NCBI GenBank assembly: GCA_020627965.1 | Contig: JAHDFX010000003.1 | Coordinates: 1-64,000, forward strand | Source: Saprospiraceae bacterium | Lineage (GTDB): Bacteria; Bacteroidota; Bacteroidia; Chitinophagales; Saprospiraceae | DNA: 64,000 nucleotides | Reading direction: 5' to 3' | Shown: in pieces, positions 63 through 56,707 of the stretch | Layout: the number at the start of each line of letters is the position of its first letter | Numbering within the stretch: the first letter of the stretch is position 1 | Made by a program: the position numbers and the translations under genes | Notes under the pieces: model-generated | Told to the model about the DNA's origin: nothing | Database searches by the model: none | The model's input: only the letters and a program-made list of their open reading frames with translations

Positions 63-3000
63 TTACTCTCCCAAAGCCCAGACCCAATCACCTTGCACAT
101 TCATATAACCGACCTTATTTCCTTGCTCAATACGCAATAAACCCTCACCGACATAGCGAATCAGCTCATATTCCGGCTCCAGAATAACTTCACCAGAGAT
201 ATTAGCAATGCCTGAAAAACGGCTCACACGCACCTTGGCGTAACCCTCTTCAAAAGGATATATCCTGCTAAATTTTGGCGCTATCAGTGGAATACCTTTG
301 TGATTGAGCAAACCCCAGCGATTGCGGTACTTGACCGGGGCTACTCCGTACTGGAAAGGCATAGCATTCTGGAAATACCCTTTATACAAATTGCCATTTT
401 CCATGATGAAATAATACTTGTGATTACGGGTACGGACTAAGCCACGACCTTCTGTGAAAGCCAGTAAGCTGGCTATTTTAGGCTGAATGAAATATTGACC
501 AGTAGAGTCGATCAAACCTGAATTTCTATAACCCATATATACTACTGCTCTGCCGCCCTGAAAGTCTTTGCATTTAGAATACTTTGCAGGAATAACTTCC
601 TGACCTTTTTTATCAACAAAACCCCATCTGCCTTTTTCTATAAAACGACCACGACCTTCGTGAAACGGCTCTACACGGGTATATTTAGGACTGACGATCT
701 CTTCTCCTGTAGCATTGATATAGCCAAAACGATTGTTCACCCGAACAGCAGCTACACCATCGCTCAATGGGTCGATTTTCTGGTATTTTTGCGAAGTTAT
801 TTTTTCTCCCTGACGGTTAATAAGCCCATAAGCGGCACCATTACTATTCAGTCGGACGATGGCTACACCTTCTTCTGAAAAAGGCTCTATTTTTCGGTAT
901 TTAGGCTTGAGAATATACTGACCTTCCGGGCTAATAAGCGCATATTCATTGCTGATACGAACCCTTGCCGTGCCATTGTCAAAATCGAAACATTCATGAA
1001 AAGCTGGCTCTATGATCGTATCGCCTCGCTTGTCAATATAACCGATAAAACTGCCACTTTCTCGCGCCCAGGCCAGCCCTCCTCTAAAGTTACCAACTTT
1101 GCGGAATTTATGTTCGATAACCTGGTCTCCATTGGTATTGATATAACCCCATTTTCTACCAAAACGAACGGCTGCTACGCCTTCACTAAAAGACTGAACT
1201 TTCTCATATTTAAATGGAGTCACCAGTCGTCCTTTAATATCTGCAAATGCCCATTTTTCTCCCTTTTTTACACCAACTCTGTTCTCTGAGCAAGAGGTTA
1301 CGTCATCATAAATAGCTTCTACAATAACTTTTCCAGTAGAGTCAATAATACCGTATTTTTCCTTATTGGCAACAATGCGCAGAATTCGGTTCTCAGCTTC
1401 TGTAACAAAATCAATATCATCAAATTCAGGCTCTAGTAAAGTGCCGCCCGCTTCATCAATCATCCCCCATTTACCATTTATTTTGACCAATGCAGTACCA
1501 TTTTCATAATCTCTGACAAACTCATAATCAGGAGGAATAACAATTTTGCCCAAAGTGTCAATAAACCCCCAGGCACAGCGCTCACATTCCAGCGTACCCT
1601 GACGAAATAGCTCAAGGTCGTATTTGGTCATACTTTCCATGGTGGTAGTCGCCATCAAAGATTTTATATGTTCACCCAATTCGCCCAGATGATATTTTGC
1701 TTTTGGGGCTTTGGCTGTGATAAAGCCCTTCCAACTGGCTCTGGCACGACCATTCCTGAATTCACCGATCCAACGGCAATTATCTTCAATAACACCTCCC
1801 TTACGGGAAATGAGTCCCTGACGTCCGTCTACAAAAACACAACGTGCAGCAGGCAGGTTTTTCTTCAGAATATCATCCATTCGAATGTCAATAATATTAA
1901 GCTCAGTCGACAACATACCTCGATCATTATTCACGATGCCAAAGATATTGTGGAACTTAAAGCGGGTACGATCAAAAGACTGCTGTGAAACAGCCTGTTT
2001 GGAAACTATGGTAAAACCCTGTTCGTGATAAATTTGAATATTATTGTAAGTCGGCGCAATGACTACTTTCCCTGATGCTCTGTCTCTTAAGCCCCATTTT
2101 CTTTTTTCTACACTATAATACCATTCAAATTTTCTCAGCAATTTATCATTCCAATTTTCATTAAAACTACCATTGCCGGAAAGGCGCTGATTGTTTTTTC
2201 TACGAATTTTAAGTGTACCGTACTTTTTAAAATTATCTTCTTCTTCAAGCTCGCCATCTTCATTGAATGTCAGTACACTAAGTTGCTCGCCAATAAAAGC
2301 CCTGGCTACGCTATTGTTGATATTGATCTTTTCATATTTTACATCAACAACTAAGTCACCTTTAAGATTGACTACACCAAAAAGTCCATTTTTACGAACA
2401 GTTGCTATACTGCCAGATAATGGAGCGATATAATCATATTCTATTGGGATAAGTATGTTGCCCCCAGGTTCGGCTACACCCCATTGAGTACCTTTTTGAA
2501 CCCGAAAAAGATTGGGACCATAATGCTGAATACCATTATAATCAGCTTCAAAAAGTTGTTCTCCATTAGCGTGAATTAATCCGGCTTTACCATTTTTGAT
2601 CGTATAAGCATACAGCGTAGACAATGCATTAAAATGATCGAATCCTTCCTGTGCAATAAGGGTTTTTGCCGCATAGGAATAAAGCCCCTTCGAAGTCGGA
2701 GATGCTAAGAGAACAAAATTATTATTTAATTTTTCAAACTGTGGCCAGGTATTTTCAAGTAATACTTCTCCTATTCTTGAACTTGCTCCCCAATGCCCCG
2801 ATTTTTTGAAAAAGAATAAACTGTCATTATGAATATTGACATCTTCATATTTGCTTTCAAGAATCGTATTGCCTTGTATATCTGTGAGCCCTATACCTTG
2901 AAGGCTGTCATAAGTTAATACGTAATCTTCCTCATACAGCTTTAGTCTGTCGTAAGCAGGGGGACAAACTTTTCGCCCTGATTGGTGTACCATTCCCCAT

Positions 3001-3392
3001 TTATCACCTTTTGTGTAGGCAATAAATTCATCTCCCCGTACTTCCAGCAATTGATATTCTTCATCAAGAATAGTGTTCCCGTCAAGATTAATAACAGTCC
3101 ATTTTTTAGCATTAAATACAGAAAATAGTTGGTCACTTAAAATGTTGATGTCATCATAATCAGTTGGCAGAATGATTTGTCCTTCTTTATTAATTAACCC
3201 AACCTGGTCATTTTGTTGAATGATGGCATACTGCCCGTCAAAATCGCCAATAATGTCATAGGAAGGCGGCACGACTAGCTGTCCCTGTGCATCAATGAGC
3301 CCCCATTTATTCTCTATTTTAACAGGGTAGCGTTGTTGAGATAAGCTGTAAAATGGTAGTAAGATCAGCAGTAAAGTCTGGATAATGCGCAT
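63..3392 (-). CDS. WG (KWG) repeat-containing secreted protein
   Basis: 1109-aa ORF with N-terminal signal peptide (MRIIQTLLLILLPFYSLSQ) and many 'KWGxIDxxGxxVIxPxYD' repeats. Confidence 0.93.
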   Translation of the reverse strand: MRIIQTLLLILLPFYSLSQQRYPVKIENKWGLIDAQGQLVVPPSYDIIGDFDGQYAIIQQNDQVGLINKEGQIILPTDYDDINILSDQLFSVFNAKKWTVINLDGNTILDEEYQLLEVRGDEFIAYTKGDKWGMVHQSGRKVCPPAYDRLKLYEEDYVLTYDSLQGIGLTDIQGNTILESKYEDVNIHNDSLFFFKKSGHWGASSRIGEVLLENTWPQFEKLNNNFVLLASPTSKGLYSYAAKTLIAQEGFDHFNALSTLYAYTIKNGKAGLIHANGEQLFEADYNGIQHYGPNLFRVQKGTQWGVAEPGGNILIPIEYDYIAPLSGSIATVRKNGLFGVVNLKGDLVVDVKYEKININNSVARAFIGEQLSVLTFNEDGELEEEDNFKKYGTLKIRRKNNQRLSGNGSFNENWNDKLLRKFEWYYSVEKRKWGLRDRASGKVVIAPTYNNIQIYHEQGFTIVSKQAVSQQSFDRTRFKFHNIFGIVNNDRGMLSTELNIIDIRMDDILKKNLPAARCVFVDGRQGLISRKGGVIEDNCRWIGEFRNGRARASWKGFITAKAPKAKYHLGELGEHIKSLMATTTMESMTKYDLELFRQGTLECERCAWGFIDTLGKIVIPPDYEFVRDYENGTALVKINGKWGMIDEAGGTLLEPEFDDIDFVTEAENRILRIVANKEKYGIIDSTGKVIVEAIYDDVTSCSENRVGVKKGEKWAFADIKGRLVTPFKYEKVQSFSEGVAAVRFGRKWGYINTNGDQVIEHKFRKVGNFRGGLAWARESGSFIGYIDKRGDTIIEPAFHECFDFDNGTARVRISNEYALISPEGQYILKPKYRKIEPFSEEGVAIVRLNSNGAAYGLINRQGEKITSQKYQKIDPLSDGVAAVRVNNRFGYINATGEEIVSPKYTRVEPFHEGRGRFIEKGRWGFVDKKGQEVIPAKYSKCKDFQGGRAVVYMGYRNSGLIDSTGQYFIQPKIASLLAFTEGRGLVRTRNHKYYFIMENGNLYKGYFQNAMPFQYGVAPVKYRNRWGLLNHKGIPLIAPKFSRIYPFEEGYAKVRVSRFSGIANISGEVILEPEYELIRYVGEGLLRIEQGNKVGYMNVQGDWVWALGE

Positions 3393-3502
3393 AGGTTGAA
3401 TTGGTTGTGTAGATTATTGGGGTACACTCTTAATGCTAAAAACGGAAAAAGATACAGAAGAATTGTAAAATAAGCAATCGCTTTTAAAGTCTAAACGTGT
3501 CC

Positions 3503-5101
3503 TTAGATAAGGTTATATCTGCCTGGGGCTATAATATTATTAGGGTCAAAAGTCTTTTTCATATCTCTGACGGTTTGCCAGAATGTATCATCTTTATCTG
3601 TGATCTGCTCCATGTCATCAATAGAAACACGATAAGGGATATAGCCCTTTTCTCTGTACAGGTAATGAAGTTCATTTAGTTTTGCTTTTACCTCCACCGA
3701 TTTTCCTGGTATTTCTTTGTCAAACAGGACATTAATAACAGCCCCTAATGTATTTGTATTAAAAGTATTTAGGGTGATATAGGCATTTAGGCCGGCTTCA
3801 GATAATTTTTCTTTGGTTATTTCAATTAGCTCGGTTGCATATTTGCCCTTGAGGGGGATTAAAGGAAGAATAAACAGCGTGCCTGTGGCGTGATGCTGTG
3901 GCTGAGCGAAAGTAGGAATATTTTTTTTATTCCAATAAAGTGATTTAAGTGTTTCATTCGTGGGAATTCCTTTAACAATTTTGAAGAGGGGAGTGATAGC
4001 TTGTAAAACGGCATTTTGCTGCGCTACGGAAGGAATAAAAGACAATTTATTTAGCCATTTTTTGGTTCGTTCAATTTTTTTATCGCTGATAAGCATAACC
4101 CTTCCATAGCGTGATAAGCGTTTTTTTATTAGGATAAAATTTGTTTTTACTTGCTCTTTTGTGCCTGAAAGCGCTCCGCCGGCAGTCCATGCATTGTTCA
4201 TGGAACTAAGTACATATTGATGAGCAATTTTATGAGCATTAGAATAGCTTATTTTCTTTTTTTCTTGATAAAAACCAGCCAGTATAGGAACGAATGTACT
4301 TGTTGTACGGGCTTTGTTGGCTATATGTACAATACTGTTCCAGATTTCCTGTCTGCGCAAATAAGCTATATCATCAATAAAGTCGGCTAATTGAGATTGC
4401 TTATTCAGCCCGCATACTACCATTGTATGGAGTTCTTTTTGAGGAATGAGTTGTATAGCTGCTTTTGTAATGATGCCATAATTGGACTGAGAGAAGAGCC
4501 CATTTAGGGATGGGCCAATGCCATGAGGATATAGGTGTTTTGTGTTAGCATTTTTATAATGACCAAAACCTGTTTTAAGGACTTGACCATTACCCAACAT
4601 AATTTCTAATCCAAGTATATCATCAATACGAAGATTAAAATAACCATCTCCTCTGTCCAGTGCGTTCCCCAATACACTGGTATCTCTCCCAGAACCAGTC
4701 ACATTCATGATGAACGGGAGCTGATGTTTTTGAATATAGTCGTAAAGTTGTCCTTGTGTGACGCCTGGCTCTATTAATGTATAACCATATTCCTGGTTAA
4801 TTTCAATTTTGTTCAATAATGATAAATCGACAATAATATTATGGTCTTTTACGGGCAGTTTGGAACCTAGTCCCCAGTTTTTTCCTGTACTAACCGGATA
4901 AAGAGACGCATAGAATTTGTTGGCAATACTTACTAACTGACTAATTTCGGCGACATCTATAGGTTGTACCACAGATGTCACCGTACGATCAAAATTACCT
5001 GTATTGAGGCACTGATAGTCTATTTTTTCCTGCTCATAAATGAATCGCTCACCAAATACACTTTTTAGTTCTTGATGTAATATTTTTGTTTGATTTTTCA
5101 T
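3503..5101 (-). CDS. FAD-binding oxidoreductase, VAO/4-cresol dehydrogenase-like
   Basis: 532 aa; FAD-domain-like N-terminus (VVQPIDVAEISQLVSIAN, YPVSTGKNWGLGSKLP) and C-terminal 'MKKTFDPNNIIAPGRYNLI' typical of VAO-type flavoproteins. Confidence 0.85.
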   Translation of the reverse strand: MKNQTKILHQELKSVFGERFIYEQEKIDYQCLNTGNFDRTVTSVVQPIDVAEISQLVSIANKFYASLYPVSTGKNWGLGSKLPVKDHNIIVDLSLLNKIEINQEYGYTLIEPGVTQGQLYDYIQKHQLPFIMNVTGSGRDTSVLGNALDRGDGYFNLRIDDILGLEIMLGNGQVLKTGFGHYKNANTKHLYPHGIGPSLNGLFSQSNYGIITKAAIQLIPQKELHTMVVCGLNKQSQLADFIDDIAYLRRQEIWNSIVHIANKARTTSTFVPILAGFYQEKKKISYSNAHKIAHQYVLSSMNNAWTAGGALSGTKEQVKTNFILIKKRLSRYGRVMLISDKKIERTKKWLNKLSFIPSVAQQNAVLQAITPLFKIVKGIPTNETLKSLYWNKKNIPTFAQPQHHATGTLFILPLIPLKGKYATELIEITKEKLSEAGLNAYITLNTFNTNTLGAVINVLFDKEIPGKSVEVKAKLNELHYLYREKGYIPYRVSIDDMEQITDKDDTFWQTVRDMKKTFDPNNIIAPGRYNLI

Positions 5102-5736
5102 GCTGCCTTATTGAACTCCATAGGGCTTTCAATAAGTTCATAATGATACTTTTGCGCAGATCTTTTAAATCGTGGATTTACATAAGCTAATTTCATAAAT
5201 AAAGGTACACCCATCTTACCCACTTTATTGTAAAGCTTTGGTATATCGAACATGTCGAAACCTACATATTTCAGGAGCCTTACGAAAGGGCTTCTCTTTA
5301 CAAGGTGTAAGGCATTAAAACGCTCACCTGGATTTGCATTAACAAAGAAAGTATCATACCTATGTATGTCGGCATACAATAATGATATATTGGCTAGTGC
5401 AGCAAAAGTTTCCGTGCTTCTGTATTTTTTTAAAATACAAAATTGTGAAATCTCTGCGGTTTTACCAGCGCATAGACTTTTTATATTCCATTGCTTTTCA
5501 ATGGGTAAGCCTAGTTCTTCATCATAAGGAATAAGTCTACTGGTTCCTACAGGAAAGCCATTCACGAACATAAGGAAATGAATGGCATGTGGATCATATC
5601 TATCCCCACCCTTACAGTAGTTCTTTAGTTTTGAAATCTTCATTTCTTCCACAAATACCTGATGGCGTATTTGTAGGCATAATTGCAAGTCTTGTTGGGA
5701 TAAGACTTGCTTTACTCGCACATTTGTTAGGTTCAT
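5098..5736 (-). CDS. GNAT/LuxI-fold N-acyltransferase-like protein
   Basis: 212 aa; 'QIRHQVFVEEMKI...DPHAIHFLMFVNGFPVGTSRLIPYDEELGLPIEKQ' resembles acyl-homoserine lactone / N-acyl amino acid synthase N-termini. Stop/start overlap (ATGA) with downstream 3503-5101 gene. Confidence 0.65.
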   Translation of the reverse strand: MNLTNVRVKQVLSQQDLQLCLQIRHQVFVEEMKISKLKNYCKGGDRYDPHAIHFLMFVNGFPVGTSRLIPYDEELGLPIEKQWNIKSLCAGKTAEISQFCILKKYRSTETFAALANISLLYADIHRYDTFFVNANPGERFNALHLVKRSPFVRLLKYVGFDMFDIPKLYNKVGKMGVPLFMKLAYVNPRFKRSAQKYHYELIESPMEFNKAA

Positions 5737-6255
5737 AATCCCATTTTTGTAGGCTTGTCACGGCCTATGCATTATTTAATTATGGTTTGTTGGGAAGGAT
5801 TACTTAGGCATTGTTTTCCGGCACAATAATAGTAAATTTAATTTAAATTTATAATAAAAAAGTTAATTTGATTGAAAATAATCTTCTCCTTCAAAACATT
5901 TAGATTGGAAAAATGCAGATAATAGCCAGTTATCATTAACCCCCAATCAGTTTTTTTGATTAAAGGTTATGTACAAAATTTCGCTGATGTTGATGTTTCT
6001 TAAATAAGAATTAAGAGGGATACCAGAATAGTGGAAAAACATACTACCAATATAAAATATATTACTTTAGCATAAAAGTAATATATCTAATGGGAACGTA
6101 AGTTCCCTTGATTGTCTTAGTGTAAGTAGAATAATTTTTCGTAGCATGAGAAAAGATGGAAGGAGAATACTCAGCCACATTTTAGATTAAATCAAATATA
6201 CGAATAAAATTTAATAAAAACTCATTGCCGTAGGAAAAAAATACAAATTTTCATT

Positions 6256-7785
6256 TTATGCAAATATTTTAGGCAGCATATCCATATATTTTTGATTGTT
6301 TAATTTTGCTTGAAGCCAGAAGGCATAATTGATTAATTCATTAGATCCGGGTTCGAATGGTAATGCGTTATTAATAAAGTCGTCAATTTTTGTTTTGAGT
6401 TCAGGTGGGAACTGGGTTCGAACTTTTTTTATTACTTGCGTAAGTAAAGAAAGGAAATTGTTTTCATGGGCATATTCTTTTTTATTCAACATTTTTCCAT
6501 GCTTCCTTTTGATTTCTTTAATTCTATTTTTTGAATACTCATACTCTGTATTATCGAACCTGAGCATAACTTCAAGCAAACGTATTCTAAGTTTCCATTC
6601 TTCTGAAAGGCTGTTGAAAGCAGGGTTAATGATAATAAATGCCAGATTTTGAATAGCTTTATTGAGTTCATTTGTCAGGTAATACAGAGAACTAAGATTG
6701 AGATAAGTAAATATAAGATGATTGATATTGTCCTTGATGAGTCTCTCTTGCTTTATTTTTTCTAATAAATCTATTGCTACTTGATGTTGGTTGGAGAAGG
6801 TATAATAGATAACTTTGTTTTGATATAATAACCAGATATACTTGTCGTGTAATAAGTCGTTATATTCGTTGAGCGCAACTTCTAGTTCTTGTGTATATTG
6901 CCCAAACATAGAAGGTCTTTTCGTTTTGATGATAGCGTTATTTATCCATACGAGCATAAGTATTTTTTCTTCATGATTGGAACGATCAAATATCTTCTCG
7001 CTGAGAAACTCTTGATAAGAACTAACTGAAAAATTTAGTAAGCCCTCAAAGTCTTTCTTTTGTAGCAAAACATTCCGAATACTTTTATTGATCTGAAAAC
7101 GTACTTTTTGAGATTGTAATAGGGCATTTTCCTCTTGTAGCTGACTGATATGCTCATCAAGAAGTTTCGTGATCTCATTTTCTTTACCAGAGAAGTTGGT
7201 ACGTCGTAGTTTTTGTACGAGATTAGCCCTTAACAAATTACTATCTTTAGTTAAGGACGTTAGATGGTCATTCTCTTTATATTTTAATATGATGTTGGGA
7301 AGGTCTGGTAAATGTATGTGATGTGCGATTTGTAGTTGTTTCTCATAAACTACATTCAGAAGCGCATAGTTTTCCTGTTTTGTAGCCAAGGTTTCGGCTT
7401 TTATGAGATAATAATTTGCCTCTTCAAAATTAGATTTAAATGTATTGACTTTGGCTAATTGTAAATACTGATAAATTAGAAATTCGTCATCTTTATGCCT
7501 GTGTAGTTGTGCCAGACTATCTTCAATATCCCTAATAAGTCGATTTTTTAACCTGTAATAACTGTTCTTAGAATTATCTGGAAATAGTTTTTGAATAAGT
7601 ACATTGTCATACTCATCCTTGCCATATTTTCTGATGTGATCAAATAGCTGAATGAGTTTTTTGTTGCCAGTAGGACTAGCAAACCGGGAAGCATATATTT
7701 TAAAATTCCTAGCCTCTTGTTTGTTTAAATTAGCAATAAGTTTTGTCAGTTTATAACTCATATCTTTCTTTGAGTTTGTAAGCAT
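6256..7785 (-). CDS. hypothetical protein, helical/TPR-like, cytoplasmic
   Basis: 509-aa ORF, no signal peptide, helix-rich with TPR-like stretches; no family recognised. Confidence 0.75.
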   Translation of the reverse strand: MLTNSKKDMSYKLTKLIANLNKQEARNFKIYASRFASPTGNKKLIQLFDHIRKYGKDEYDNVLIQKLFPDNSKNSYYRLKNRLIRDIEDSLAQLHRHKDDEFLIYQYLQLAKVNTFKSNFEEANYYLIKAETLATKQENYALLNVVYEKQLQIAHHIHLPDLPNIILKYKENDHLTSLTKDSNLLRANLVQKLRRTNFSGKENEITKLLDEHISQLQEENALLQSQKVRFQINKSIRNVLLQKKDFEGLLNFSVSSYQEFLSEKIFDRSNHEEKILMLVWINNAIIKTKRPSMFGQYTQELEVALNEYNDLLHDKYIWLLYQNKVIYYTFSNQHQVAIDLLEKIKQERLIKDNINHLIFTYLNLSSLYYLTNELNKAIQNLAFIIINPAFNSLSEEWKLRIRLLEVMLRFDNTEYEYSKNRIKEIKRKHGKMLNKKEYAHENNFLSLLTQVIKKVRTQFPPELKTKIDDFINNALPFEPGSNELINYAFWLQAKLNNQKYMDMLPKIFA

Positions 7786-7873
7786 TGGGTCACAAAATAA
7801 ACAAAAAAATGTATCTACTCAAATCTAGAATGTTTATCTTAAGATAAAAGAATAACTTAATCTAAAATAAATT

Positions 7874-8653
7874 ATGATGATACATCACTTTAAAATAAAG
7901 TTAAGGGTATTAATTCTTCTTTTATTTACTGCTTCACTTGTCTACGGACAACCAAATAAAAGAATTGACTTATTGCATTTTAGTATGCCTGATAATGTTG
8001 GTTTGAATGGCTCATTTACAGTAAATGGCTATATAAAAAATACAGGCAATGGCACCATAAAAGAAGGCACGGTCATTCATGGTATGATAGAAACATCTGT
8101 TGTACCAGAGAATACCTCTATAGAAACAGGGGGCGTTAATGTTAACTATCTACCTCAGATGACTTTGGGTAAATTACATGCAGGAGATAGTGTTTATATA
8201 GAACATATCATTCAAGTAGATCCAGGTTTATTTAGCCCAGGTGTCAGTAGTATTGTAATTATTTGGCCAACTTCTCAAATAATTGATATAGAGGATAGTA
8301 TTCGGTTTGAACAATCTATTTATGTCAACACGAATCCAGGAAATACAAGTCTAACCATAGGTGATTCAGACAACATTACTGTGATTGATAATAATAGAAG
8401 AGGTGCTGAGCCTGTATTGGCTGAAGAACTGATCCAGTTCAATCTCCCCAACCCAAAAGTATTCACAACATTTACAGCTAAATTTTATGATGTCAACGGA
8501 CAACTTGTAGCAAAGAGAACTATTACATGCAACCAGAAAGCAGAATTGAAAATAGGAACGGATATGCTGGTGAGCGGACAAAAATATTCTCTTATACTTG
8601 TAGATGAAAACAGACAGAAAATTCTCTTGAAAAAGAAAATTATCAAAAGATGA
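7874..8653 (+). CDS. secreted protein with CARDB-like domain and type A T9SS-like C-terminus
   Basis: 259 aa, signal peptide; 'GSFTVNGYIKNTGNGTIKEGTV' resembles CARDB; C-term 'FTAKFYDVNGQLVAKRTI...KILLKKKIIKR'. Confidence 0.65.
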   Translation: MMIHHFKIKLRVLILLLFTASLVYGQPNKRIDLLHFSMPDNVGLNGSFTVNGYIKNTGNGTIKEGTVIHGMIETSVVPENTSIETGGVNVNYLPQMTLGKLHAGDSVYIEHIIQVDPGLFSPGVSSIVIIWPTSQIIDIEDSIRFEQSIYVNTNPGNTSLTIGDSDNITVIDNNRRGAEPVLAEELIQFNLPNPKVFTTFTAKFYDVNGQLVAKRTITCNQKAELKIGTDMLVSGQKYSLILVDENRQKILLKKKIIKR

Positions 8654-8686
8654 GTTCTTTGATTTTCTTTAGTAAATATTGGAATT

Positions 8687-8720
8687 AATGAGACTCTTAT
8701 TCTTGGTCTCATTCTATATT
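8687..8720 (+). terminator. hairpin terminator after 7874-8653
   Basis: AATGAGAC (8687-8694) / GTCTCATT (8706-8713), then T-rich sequence. Confidence 0.55.
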
Positions 8721-9299
8721 TAGGTTTTTAAATCAAGGAGGTAAATTGTGGTTTCAGCTCAGTTTGTCTTCTTATATTTTGCTTGATTTTTGTCTTTGAA
8801 AATGTAAGAAAAAAATGCGAAATAGAGCCTAATAATAGCATAACAACTTCCTGAAGAGAGTAGTTTTTGTTTGAAAAACGCTGATTTTACCTAAAGAAAT
8901 ACCTTTTTCTTACACACCCAAAACATAGTTTTAGATTGAACCCTGTGTAAAATAATACTTTTAATAAGAACTGTAGTACTTGATCGAATATTGGCGTTGT
9001 TCTTTGTTAGGTGAGGTAAGTGTTTGATTATTAGTTGTTTTGTTTTCGTTCGTTAGTGAATTGTGTGTTTTTATATTAGGTTGTTTTTTGATTTTTTTTA
9101 CGCAAATAAAATAGTCACTAATATTCATTTGCTTCTTTTTGCCTTATGCATCCTTTTTTATTTGATCAGAGTCAATATGAGTGTCTGGTCTAATTGCATA
9201 ATCGAGGTTGTGGTTTTCACAACTTAAGTTATATAGATCAACTTGCATGAAGTTTTACCATTATAAACTAATTAATCATCAAAGTAAAAAAATTAAATC

Positions 9300-9917
9300 A
9301 TGAGAAAATTATTCTTACTAAGTATTTTAGCCCTAACTACAATATTTGTTGCTTGCGAACAGCAAGAACTGATATTTAATGAAACAACTGATGGAGTTAT
9401 TGAAAGTACAGTAGAGAGAACAGGCATGACAGGTGAGGTTGCAGATGCACCTACTACCAGAAATAATGATATTGTTCTTCCTGCAAGCCTGACATTATAT
9501 GCTGGTCAAAATATTGAGGCAGGTCAAGTAAAAATAACTACAGATGGAGTAAGCCTGTTTGTTACTTATGTAACTAATGACGGTTGGGAATTGGGAACTA
9601 CACATTTGTATGCAGGGGCATGTGATAATATGCCACTTACGGGCAAAGGAAATCCGAAGATCGGTCAATTCCCATATGTTATTGATGTTAGAGGAGAAGA
9701 TAGTTATACCTTTGATCTTTCCCTTGAAGAAATTCTTAATAAAGACGAAGACCCTATTTCTGCTGCGACGGGTTGTTTTTGTCTAGCTGCTCATGCAGAA
9801 TTAACAAAAGCCAACTCCGATGATACAGGAGCAGATGAAGAAGAAACTGGTTGGGCAGATTGGGCAACTGAATTTGAGGGTAACAGATGGGGAGGCTATA
9901 CAGAAATTTGTCTGTAG
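9300..9917 (+). CDS. lipoprotein with a widespread unnamed 'VTNDGW..THLYAG..GQFPY..AHAEL..WADW' domain
   Basis: 205 aa, lipobox-like ...FVAC; conserved-looking motifs as listed. Confidence 0.75.
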   Translation: MRKLFLLSILALTTIFVACEQQELIFNETTDGVIESTVERTGMTGEVADAPTTRNNDIVLPASLTLYAGQNIEAGQVKITTDGVSLFVTYVTNDGWELGTTHLYAGACDNMPLTGKGNPKIGQFPYVIDVRGEDSYTFDLSLEEILNKDEDPISAATGCFCLAAHAELTKANSDDTGADEEETGWADWATEFEGNRWGGYTEICL

Positions 9918-54949: not shown

Positions 54950-56023
54950 TTACATATTCCCATAACAAGTTTTCAAGGTGTTTTCAGCCTTTTTGTTTTG
55001 TGGCGTATAATCAGATGGATCATAACCTTCTCCGCCTGCGCCATTGGGAAACCATTTCCAAAGAAAACCACCCGCCCACCAGTCTTGTAATTTTAGCTCT
55101 TCCAATAATGCTTCAATAGCATTTGCCTGAGCCTGTTCATTAATGGGCAAACTTTTTACCTTGGACTCCAATTCCCAAGTTTTATGGGCGCAGCCATCGA
55201 CACTCAGATAACCATACTCCGTAAAAAGAACTGGCTTATTAGTAGTACAGGCAAATTGTTCGATCTGTTTGATATAGGGCTTCCAGGCTTTTCTAAGTTC
55301 ATTTACAGATGGTGTGGCAGCCGTACTTAATGGAAAATAGGCGCTAATGCCTATATAGTCCAACCTTTCCCAGAAAGGCACTTTTTGATAATCATCCCAA
55401 TTAGCACTATAGGTCAGTTTGCCATTATATACTTTTTGAATTTTATCAATGAGCTGATCCCAAAATTCAGGACGTTTTACAACTGATTTGCTGAATTCTG
55501 TACCGATACAGAGCATTTCTACTCGCATAGAATCGGCAATTTTTGCCATAGTCAATAAATAATACTCATAGTCTGTTTCCCATTTTCCCCATTTGTCATC
55601 CTGCTTAAAATCTAAATCACCTGGCCAACTACCAGGAATATAAACCTGCGGCTTGAGCATAACACTCAAACCTGCTTCTTTGGCGAGTTGTATGCTGGTT
55701 TTTACGCCTTCTGTCTTTTCGCCCCACCATTGCCAGTCGATATTAAAACTAACATGTGCCTTGCCCGGACGAGTGAAGCCATAAGGAATTACAGCTATCC
55801 AGTCGGCATTAACAGCTTGTATAGGAGGCATAGGATTTTCAGGAAAAGGCCTGGCAGGAGCGGTCATGGTGATACCTTTCAGACGCTTTTCAACCTTTAT
55901 TTCGCAGTTAGTGGAACCTGGAAGGCTAGAACACGTATACCCAAATAACAGAAAAGAAGAAGCAAATAAGAGTAAGCACCAAATATTTGGTGAAGTTTTG
56001 TTTTGGCAAATTTTTCGCATCAT
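54950..56023 (-). CDS. GH113-like (TIM-barrel) lipoprotein
   Basis: 357 aa; lipobox LFGYTC; 'LCIGTEFSKSV', 'YIGISAYFPLS', 'PVLFTEYGYLS', 'AGGFLWKWFPNG'. Confidence 0.82.
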   Translation of the reverse strand: MMRKICQNKTSPNIWCLLLFASSFLLFGYTCSSLPGSTNCEIKVEKRLKGITMTAPARPFPENPMPPIQAVNADWIAVIPYGFTRPGKAHVSFNIDWQWWGEKTEGVKTSIQLAKEAGLSVMLKPQVYIPGSWPGDLDFKQDDKWGKWETDYEYYLLTMAKIADSMRVEMLCIGTEFSKSVVKRPEFWDQLIDKIQKVYNGKLTYSANWDDYQKVPFWERLDYIGISAYFPLSTAATPSVNELRKAWKPYIKQIEQFACTTNKPVLFTEYGYLSVDGCAHKTWELESKVKSLPINEQAQANAIEALLEELKLQDWWAGGFLWKWFPNGAGGEGYDPSDYTPQNKKAENTLKTCYGNM

Positions 56024-56176: not shown

Positions 56177-56209
56177 TTTGCATTTTAAATCAATTTTGTT
56201 GTAAATTTG
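56177..56209 (+). promoter_or_regulatory. Bacteroidetes-type promoter TTTG-N21-TAAATTTG
   Basis: TTTG 56177-56180 and TAAATTTG 56202-56209, matching the TTTG/TAnnTTTG architecture, about 42 nt upstream of the first tRNA-like RNA. Confidence 0.6.
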
Positions 56210-56250
56210 TAATAACAAATCAAGCGAAAGGCTTGATGAAATTAAAATAC

Positions 56251-56393
56251 TGTGAGGTGATGAAATTGGCAGACATGCCCTCTTGTCTCGAGGGTGAGGA
56301 TAATAGGATAAACGTAGTATATCGGGTTGACCACTAAAGTTGATTTGTACTATAGCTAACTACCTCGTGAAGGTTCGACCCCTTCTCTCACAG
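56251..56393 (+). ncRNA. tRNA-like RNA, copy 1, with expanded (about 74 nt) variable domain
   Basis: Acceptor TGTGAGG/TCTCACA; D-arm ATG-AAATTGGCAGA-CAT; anticodon arm CCCTC-TTGTCTC-GAGGG; T-arm GAAGG-TTCGACC-CCTTC; G73; no encoded CCA. Confidence 0.75.
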
Positions 56394-56431
56394 CTACGAA
56401 CTCAAATGAGAGTTCTCTATGACAAAAATAC

Positions 56432-56574
56432 TGTGAGGTGATGAAATTGGCAGACATGCCCTCTTGTCTCGAGGGTGAAGATAACGGGATAAACGTAGTA
56501 TATCGGGTTGACCACTAAAGTTAATTTGTGCTATGGCTAACCACTTCGTGAAGGTTCGACCCCTTCTCTCACAG
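56432..56574 (+). ncRNA. tRNA-like RNA, copy 2, with expanded variable domain
   Basis: Tandem copy at +181 bp. Acceptor, D-, anticodon and T-arms are identical to copy 1; 8 transitions in the variable domain. Confidence 0.75.
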
Positions 56575-56593
56575 CGATACCAGGCGAATTTTA

Positions 56594-56634
56594 AAAAGCG
56601 GAAATGACTGATGTTGTTTCCGCTTTTGCTTTTT
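56594..56634 (+). terminator. Rho-independent terminator after the tRNA-like pair
   Basis: AAAAGCGGAAA (56594-56604) / TTTCCGCTTTT (56617-56627) then GCTTTTT. Confidence 0.88.
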
Positions 56635-56707
56635 CTATCTGTATCTTTATTTTTCTGATTCGTTATGATAATGTTTTGTTTGTAAACTCCTATTTTAAAG
56701 AAAAAAA

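Follow-up and report, generated by a model that had tools for sequence, protein, structure and literature searches.

A tRNA-like RNA family of Bacteroidota as a putative carrier for tRNA-dependent asparagine synthesis

In the indirect pathway of AspRS and GatCAB, tRNA-Asn is charged with Asp and then amidated, and this pathway is used where the asparagine synthetases AsnA and AsnB are missing. As for the elements read by these enzymes, the Asp identity set comprises G73, G34, U35, C36, and C38, and GatCAB picks tRNA-Asn by the U1-A72 pair, with G1-C72 and U20a as antideterminants; G73 is, furthermore, an antideterminant against LeuRS on E. coli tRNA-Ser (PMC9976931). In 18 genera, including Bacteroidetes, AsnRS, GlnRS, and GatCAB are found together with a tRNA-Asn carrying U1-A72 and with no AsnA/AsnB, and the synthesis of asparagine on tRNA-Asn has been proposed for such genera (PMC4206432). 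AsnC of E. coli activates asnA, and asparagine abolishes this activation (PMC4482635).

The tRNA-like RNA described here resembles several known systems but coincides with none. Like tRNA-Asn of the indirect pathway, it has U1-A72 and G73, is expected to be charged with Asp and then amidated, and would be used where AsnA/AsnB are missing; unlike tRNA-Asn, it has GUC instead of GUU, a pyrimidine at position 37, a class II body, and often a giant variable domain, is encoded in its own operon, is not expected to decode, and would not need a non-discriminating AspRS. Its proposed role is that of AsnA and AsnB, the former of which is AsnC-regulated in E. coli, but these are protein enzymes, whereas here an RNA would act together with AspRS and GatCAB. 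In its body, the RNA is similar to the class II tRNA-Leu, with which it shares the D-loop AATTGG-AG, U44, and two unpaired bases between the V-arm and the T-stem; tRNA-Leu is likely to be its ancestor. The RNA differs in the UCUC loop, U1-A72, the extended variable domain, and also position 73, where G73 instead of A73, the discriminator for LeuRS, was found in all of the 223 host copies. With tmRNA, it shares tRNA-like ends and an insert before the T-arm; unlike tmRNA, it has a D-stem and an anticodon arm, lacks a tag ORF, is half the size, and carries Asp-type rather than Ala-type elements. The RNA also shares with tRNA-Sec and allo-tRNAs (PMC7609411) a non-canonical class II body and a long variable arm, but it differs from them in its 7-bp acceptor, a far larger variable domain, and having no UCA anticodon.

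Two genes of this RNA lie in tandem on the + strand, 181 bp apart and 94% identical, in the window analysed here, namely positions 1 to 64,000 (64,000 nucleotides) of contig JAHDFX010000003.1 from a Saprospiraceae bacterium. A reading made from the sequence only had proposed two such elements in a transcription unit of their own, and both were confirmed, at 56251-56394 (copy 1) and 56432-56575 (copy 2), each with a length of exactly 142 nt between U1 and A72 inclusive, followed by the encoded G73 and C74. The tRNA fold that it drew is present in each copy: a 7-bp acceptor (TGTGAGG/TCTCACA), a Leu-type D-arm, a 5-bp anticodon arm, and a T-arm with the loop TTCGACC, followed by G73-C74. In copy 1, the anticodon arm (56278-56294) carries the loop TTGTCTC (56283-56289; U33, G34, U35, C36, U37, and C38), and the T-arm occupies 56369-56385; the anticodon arm of copy 2 is at 56459-56475, with its loop at 56464-56470. 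The giant variable domain also stood up to inspection, being 74 nt in both copies (56295-56368 and 56476-56549). In copy 1, it is composed of the helices GAGG/CCTC and TAG/CTA, an internal loop of GATAAA/CTAA, and, at the apex, a hairpin with the GGGTTGACCAC motif (56323-56337), which is conserved among long-type homologs. At the base of this domain, GAGG/CCTC of copy 1 is replaced by GAAG/CTTC in copy 2, which is a compensatory change. The unit is preceded by a Bacteroidota-type promoter, TTTG-N21-TAAATTTG (56177-56209, + strand), and followed by an intrinsic terminator (56594-56636, + strand) composed of an 11-bp hairpin, AAAAGCGGAAA/TTTCCGCTTTT, and a T tract. Indeed, the promoter motif was found within 200 nt upstream in 113 of the 180 homologous loci, compared with 3.3 in shuffled sequences and 3 on the antisense strand.

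The sequence-only reading, which assigned no function, had also held that the RNA belongs to no known class, and our searches agree. ARAGORN found 0 genes in the window, neither tRNA nor tmRNA, and Rfam 15 gave nothing above the gathering threshold in the window and no tRNA match even at an E-value of 10; in 12 homologous loci, including those of Pedobacter, Chitinophaga, and Dyadobacter, the only Rfam match was one ordinary tRNA. That the RNA is not a tmRNA, as claimed, is borne out by this result and also by the insert, which has no conserved tag reading frame among the homologs. In the literature searched, which lay mostly outside subscription journals, we found no earlier description of the RNA; the RNA class and its proposed role are new, while the chemistry of GatCAB is already known. 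The genome of this bacterium (6.4 Mb, 409 contigs) has only these two copies and otherwise a normal set of tRNAs, including two tRNA-Asp(GTC) genes. We also noticed in this genome seven closely packed, divergent tRNAs (Asp, Pro, Arg, Gly, Val, Thr, and Ile; contig C386:14525-15419, locus L063), which differ from the other tRNA genes of the genome and are perhaps a tRNA array of a provirus or mobile element.

The structure is strongly supported by comparison of homologs, in which the evidence is covariation and not folding energy; the energy from single-sequence folding was unremarkable (z of about -0.3) and uninformative for the structure. A DNA similarity search yielded 59 distinct elements 111-198 nt long, and 47 of them were examined for covariation with the apical loop trimmed. 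As many as 99.4% of the pair cells were standard, and 17 of the 28 pairs were changed on both sides, which none of 500 shuffles equalled. The architecture of the variable domain covaries as well, with a 4-bp helix, a 3-bp helix (alternating among CAG/CTG, TAC/GTA, AGC/GCT, and others), the conserved internal loop GATAAA/CTAA, and an apical hairpin that varies freely in length. The insert between the arms ranges from 38 to over 100 nt across the homologs, and the GGGTTGACCAC motif marks the long subtype in both hosts and viral contigs but is missing from short copies. The giant domain does not define the family: the same acceptor, loop, and G73-C74 are found in several viral copies with short variable regions and in a single host copy (L365 of the Hymenobacter-like genome G169, positions 58-134), whose variable region is only a few bases, and the large domain is thus optional. 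In another homolog (L014, minus strand, 1247-1441), which has the usual core and the loop CTGTCAC, an unrelated insert of ~127 nt replaces the variable domain.

The constant core of the family is therefore the acceptor, the UCUC loop, and G73-C74. U1, G2, C71, A72, G34, U35, C36, and C38 were invariant in 59/59 homologs, which were extracted by a rule that ignored the loop and U1, and GC (= G73-C74) directly followed the element in all of them; A10 was found in 53/59. Among 223 non-redundant host copies, for which positions 35, 36, and 38 belonged to the selection criteria, U1-A72 was present in 222, G2-C71, G73, and C74 in 223 each, and G34 in 202, and position 20a was A in almost all. Position 37 was U or C in 222 of the 223, position 33 was not U in 26, and position 34 was C, A, or U in 21, mainly in Hymenobacter-like genomes (changed to C or A in loci L123-L125, L132, L140, L148, L171, L174, and L196). 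The tRNAs listed for the genome of the window all encode C74, mostly without a full CCA, so that the 3' end of the RNA matches the convention of the host tRNAs.

This core combines Asp charging identity with Asn-type amidation identity. The determinants for AspRS, G73, G34, U35, C36, C38, and G2-C71, are present, with position 34 differing in 21/223; such a change would weaken the recognition by AspRS. Of further elements of E. coli tRNA-Asp, G10 is mostly replaced by A10, and G1-C72 by U1-A72. For GatCAB, U1-A72 is present, and the antideterminants G1-C72 and U20a are absent. As in a decoding tRNA, there are a 7-bp acceptor, D, anticodon, and T arms, and C74 encoded as in the host tRNAs, but the combination of U33 and a purine at 37 is not kept, the variable region (74 nt) is not of ordinary length, and neither ARAGORN nor Rfam detected a tRNA in the window (0 matches). 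With a pyrimidine at position 37 and no constant U33, ordinary decoding is unlikely. A decoding RNA with both identities would, moreover, place Asn at Asp codons. Serylation by SerRS, which G73 and the long arm might suggest, was considered and set aside; it leaves the UCUC loop unexplained, and the base of the V-arm is Leu-like, with the two unpaired nucleotides known from tRNA-Leu.

The family is widespread in Bacteroidota. Of 101 related genomes, 53 gave a match in a DNA search, frequently with copies in tandem, and a covariance model applied to 397 genomes of the phylum recovered homologs of conserved structure (at least 80 bits, ~110-175 nt) and separated them from ordinary Leu-type tRNAs, which scored no more than 63 bits. 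By a pattern scan, the matches listed included Saprospiraceae, Chitinophaga, Hymenobacter, Dyadobacter, Cyclobacterium, Belliella, Fulvivirga, Marivirga, Pedobacter, and Ignavibacteria, and the covariance model confirmed the family in 80/80 fetched loci. In total, the 223 non-redundant copies come from Bacteroidota and Ignavibacteria, and 79 copies are on viral contigs; nearly all of 80 contigs fetched from IMG/VR scored at least 74 bits. Some viral copies have short variable regions and are called tRNA-Asp by ARAGORN, and some sit inside tRNA arrays. For example, L286 (IMGVR_UViG_3300042314_000891) has a tmRNA and 25 tRNA genes at 1363-9775, and the tRNA-like RNA closes the array. Comparable arrays are found in L302 and L300, and all three contigs also have a normal tRNA-Asp. 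Among the IMG/VR contigs, some could be host DNA assigned to viruses in error, but this is unlikely for those bearing arrays, because the arrays lie on contigs of 85-290 kb. No GatB, AsnB, or AsnC-type gene was found beside the viral copies. A plasmid collection had no match to the RNA, and annotated phages had none to the long form; when annotated phages were searched for the short form, the single match was an ordinary tRNA-Leu, and 24-bp matches in Streptococcus phages were judged to be chance.

From the core, a link to GatCAB had been predicted beforehand, and we then looked for GatB in 80 genomes that had been selected for either having or lacking the RNA. Scored by the GatB subunit, GatCAB was present in 40/40 RNA-bearing genomes and absent from 15/17 RNA-less genomes of the class. 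AsnRS was full length in every genome of the class; GlnRS was missing from a few, including one of the RNA-less exceptions (G138), which explains GatB without the RNA there. The other exception, G188, has GatB but not the RNA even with a relaxed pattern, which speaks against the link. Among genomes with both AsnRS and GlnRS, in which GatCAB is therefore redundant for decoding, GatB was found in 33/33 RNA-bearing versus 1/16 RNA-less genomes (Fisher, 1e-11), although this value and the one given below overstate independence, since the genomes are related and not independent trials. The contrast recurs inside two families (f23 and f21). GlnRS is missing from the RNA-bearing Hymenobacter-like family (f29), genome G371, and Ignavibacteria, which thus need GatCAB for Gln anyway; among the three Hymenobacter-like genomes tested, all lack GlnRS, and two have AsnA.

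A second prediction, likewise made beforehand, was that asparagine synthetases would be missing from RNA-bearing genomes, and they do show a pattern opposite to that of GatB. AsnA was absent in 36/40 RNA-bearing genomes, the other four having AsnA beside the RNA, and E. coli-type AsnB was found in 0/40; of the RNA-less genomes of the class, 10/17 had a full-length E. coli-type AsnB of at least 65% identity, and one more had it at 40%. AsnA or E. coli-type AsnB was present in 4/37 RNA-bearing versus 12/17 RNA-less genomes of the class (Fisher, 2e-5), and five RNA-less genomes had neither, with no obvious source of asparagine. This count required a protein query, as TIGR01536 alone merges true AsnB with polysaccharide-type paralogs; the AsnB-like hits in the genome of the window adjoin glycosyltransferases. 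The polysaccharide-type paralogs of RNA-bearing genomes could in principle make Asn.

Clustering of flanking genes revealed a single strongly conserved neighbour, a divergent gene of ~155 aa in 87/180 loci, which encodes an Lrp/AsnC regulator (best NCBIfam model AsnC, with a score below the cut-off). The AsnC-type gene is divergent from the RNA in 81 of the 154 loci with enough upstream sequence, at a median distance of 161 bp; in E. coli, asnC and asnA are also divergent. When the region between the regulator and the RNA was scanned for an AsnC operator by a simple search for dyads, the yield was mostly AT-rich noise. Most Saprospiraceae loci, including the window, have no adjacent AsnC-type gene, and the upstream gene in such loci is often a GH113-like lipoprotein. 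In the window, this GH113-like glycosidase lipoprotein (54950-56023, minus strand) adjoins the RNA, and it is kept in ~15 Saprospiraceae loci.

Taken together, we consider it probable, though by no means assured, that the RNA, a tRNA derivative that probably does not decode, is the dedicated carrier on which tRNA-dependent asparagine synthesis proceeds via AspRS and GatCAB. The RNA would be transcribed from its own promoter and, judging from its structure and encoded C74, processed like a tRNA. The single AspRS of the cell would then charge it with Asp through G34-U35-C36, C38, G73, and G2-C71, and GatCAB, reading U1-A72, would amidate Asp-RNA to Asn-RNA, as the co-occurrence of GatB suggests. 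Asparagine would be set free for AsnRS and metabolism, and the pyrimidine at 37, the unfixed position 33, and the often large variable domain may block the reading of Asp codons as Asn. The AsnC-type regulator would turn the RNA on at low asparagine, as AsnC does asnA in E. coli; the RNA would thereby replace AsnA/AsnB, and phages may carry it to keep asparagine supplied. We know of no enzyme that releases Asn from such an RNA, which counts against the model because bulk synthesis needs fast release of Asn.

The lack of a known route for quick release would be of no concern if the charged and amidated RNA sensed or regulated Asp/Asn, or AspRS and GatCAB, rather than being a bulk source of Asn. 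The adjoining AsnC-type gene and the large conserved variable domain with its GATAAA/CTAA and GGGTTGACCAC motifs fit such a role, but it alone explains neither the loss of true asparagine synthetases in RNA-bearing genomes nor the viral copies that drop the large domain, and we regard it as unlikely. The main rival is that ordinary tRNA-Asn is the site of Asn synthesis, through a non-discriminating AspRS and GatCAB, with the RNA only a scaffold or regulator of that complex; this route has precedent in the proposals for Bdellovibrio and some Bacteroidetes and in the 18 genera with U1-A72 in tRNA-Asn (PMC4206432). Nonetheless, the RNA has the Asp anticodon GUC and not GUU, GatCAB is lost together with the RNA, and the AspRS in the genome of the window is single and of bacterial type, all of which make this route decidedly unlikely. 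At two positions that we take to be markers of non-discriminating enzymes, F and K stand in this AspRS in place of H and G, a weak indication.

It is very improbable that the RNA is an unusual decoding tRNA for Asp codons, or acidic codons generally, on the ribosome, even though its tRNA-like architecture is complete and some viral contigs have it in tRNA arrays, with short copies called tRNA-Asp. Position 37 is against it, as is the replacement of U33; ordinary tRNA-Asp genes are already present in the genome of the window and in the viral arrays, and U1-A72 would be unexplained. A role in Asp decoding only was ruled out by position 37, the variable positions 33 and 34, and these normal tRNA-Asp genes alongside. 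The multiple copies and the carriage by viral contigs could also point to a decoy or sponge that is not aminoacylated and targets, for example, tRNA-processing enzymes or anticodon nucleases; such a decoy, however, predicts neither the joint determinants for AspRS and GatCAB, nor the co-occurrence with GatCAB, nor the complementarity with asparagine synthetases, and we hold it to be the most remote of the readings considered.

Returning to the carrier for asparagine synthesis, whether an RNA-dependent asparagine synthetase has replaced AsnA/AsnB in much of Bacteroidota, with AsnC-type control in many lineages and as an auxiliary metabolic RNA of phages, appears to us evenly balanced. Several hundred copies of an RNA with no Rfam family are, in any case, present in common soil, freshwater, and marine Bacteroidota and in viral contigs. 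If the proposal is true, an amino acid would be synthesized apart from translation, on an RNA carrier dedicated to it, and phages would possess an auxiliary metabolic gene that is RNA only. It would also correct auxotrophy predictions based on genomes and account for the bacteria that have AsnRS, GlnRS, and GatCAB without an asparagine synthetase (PMC4206432).
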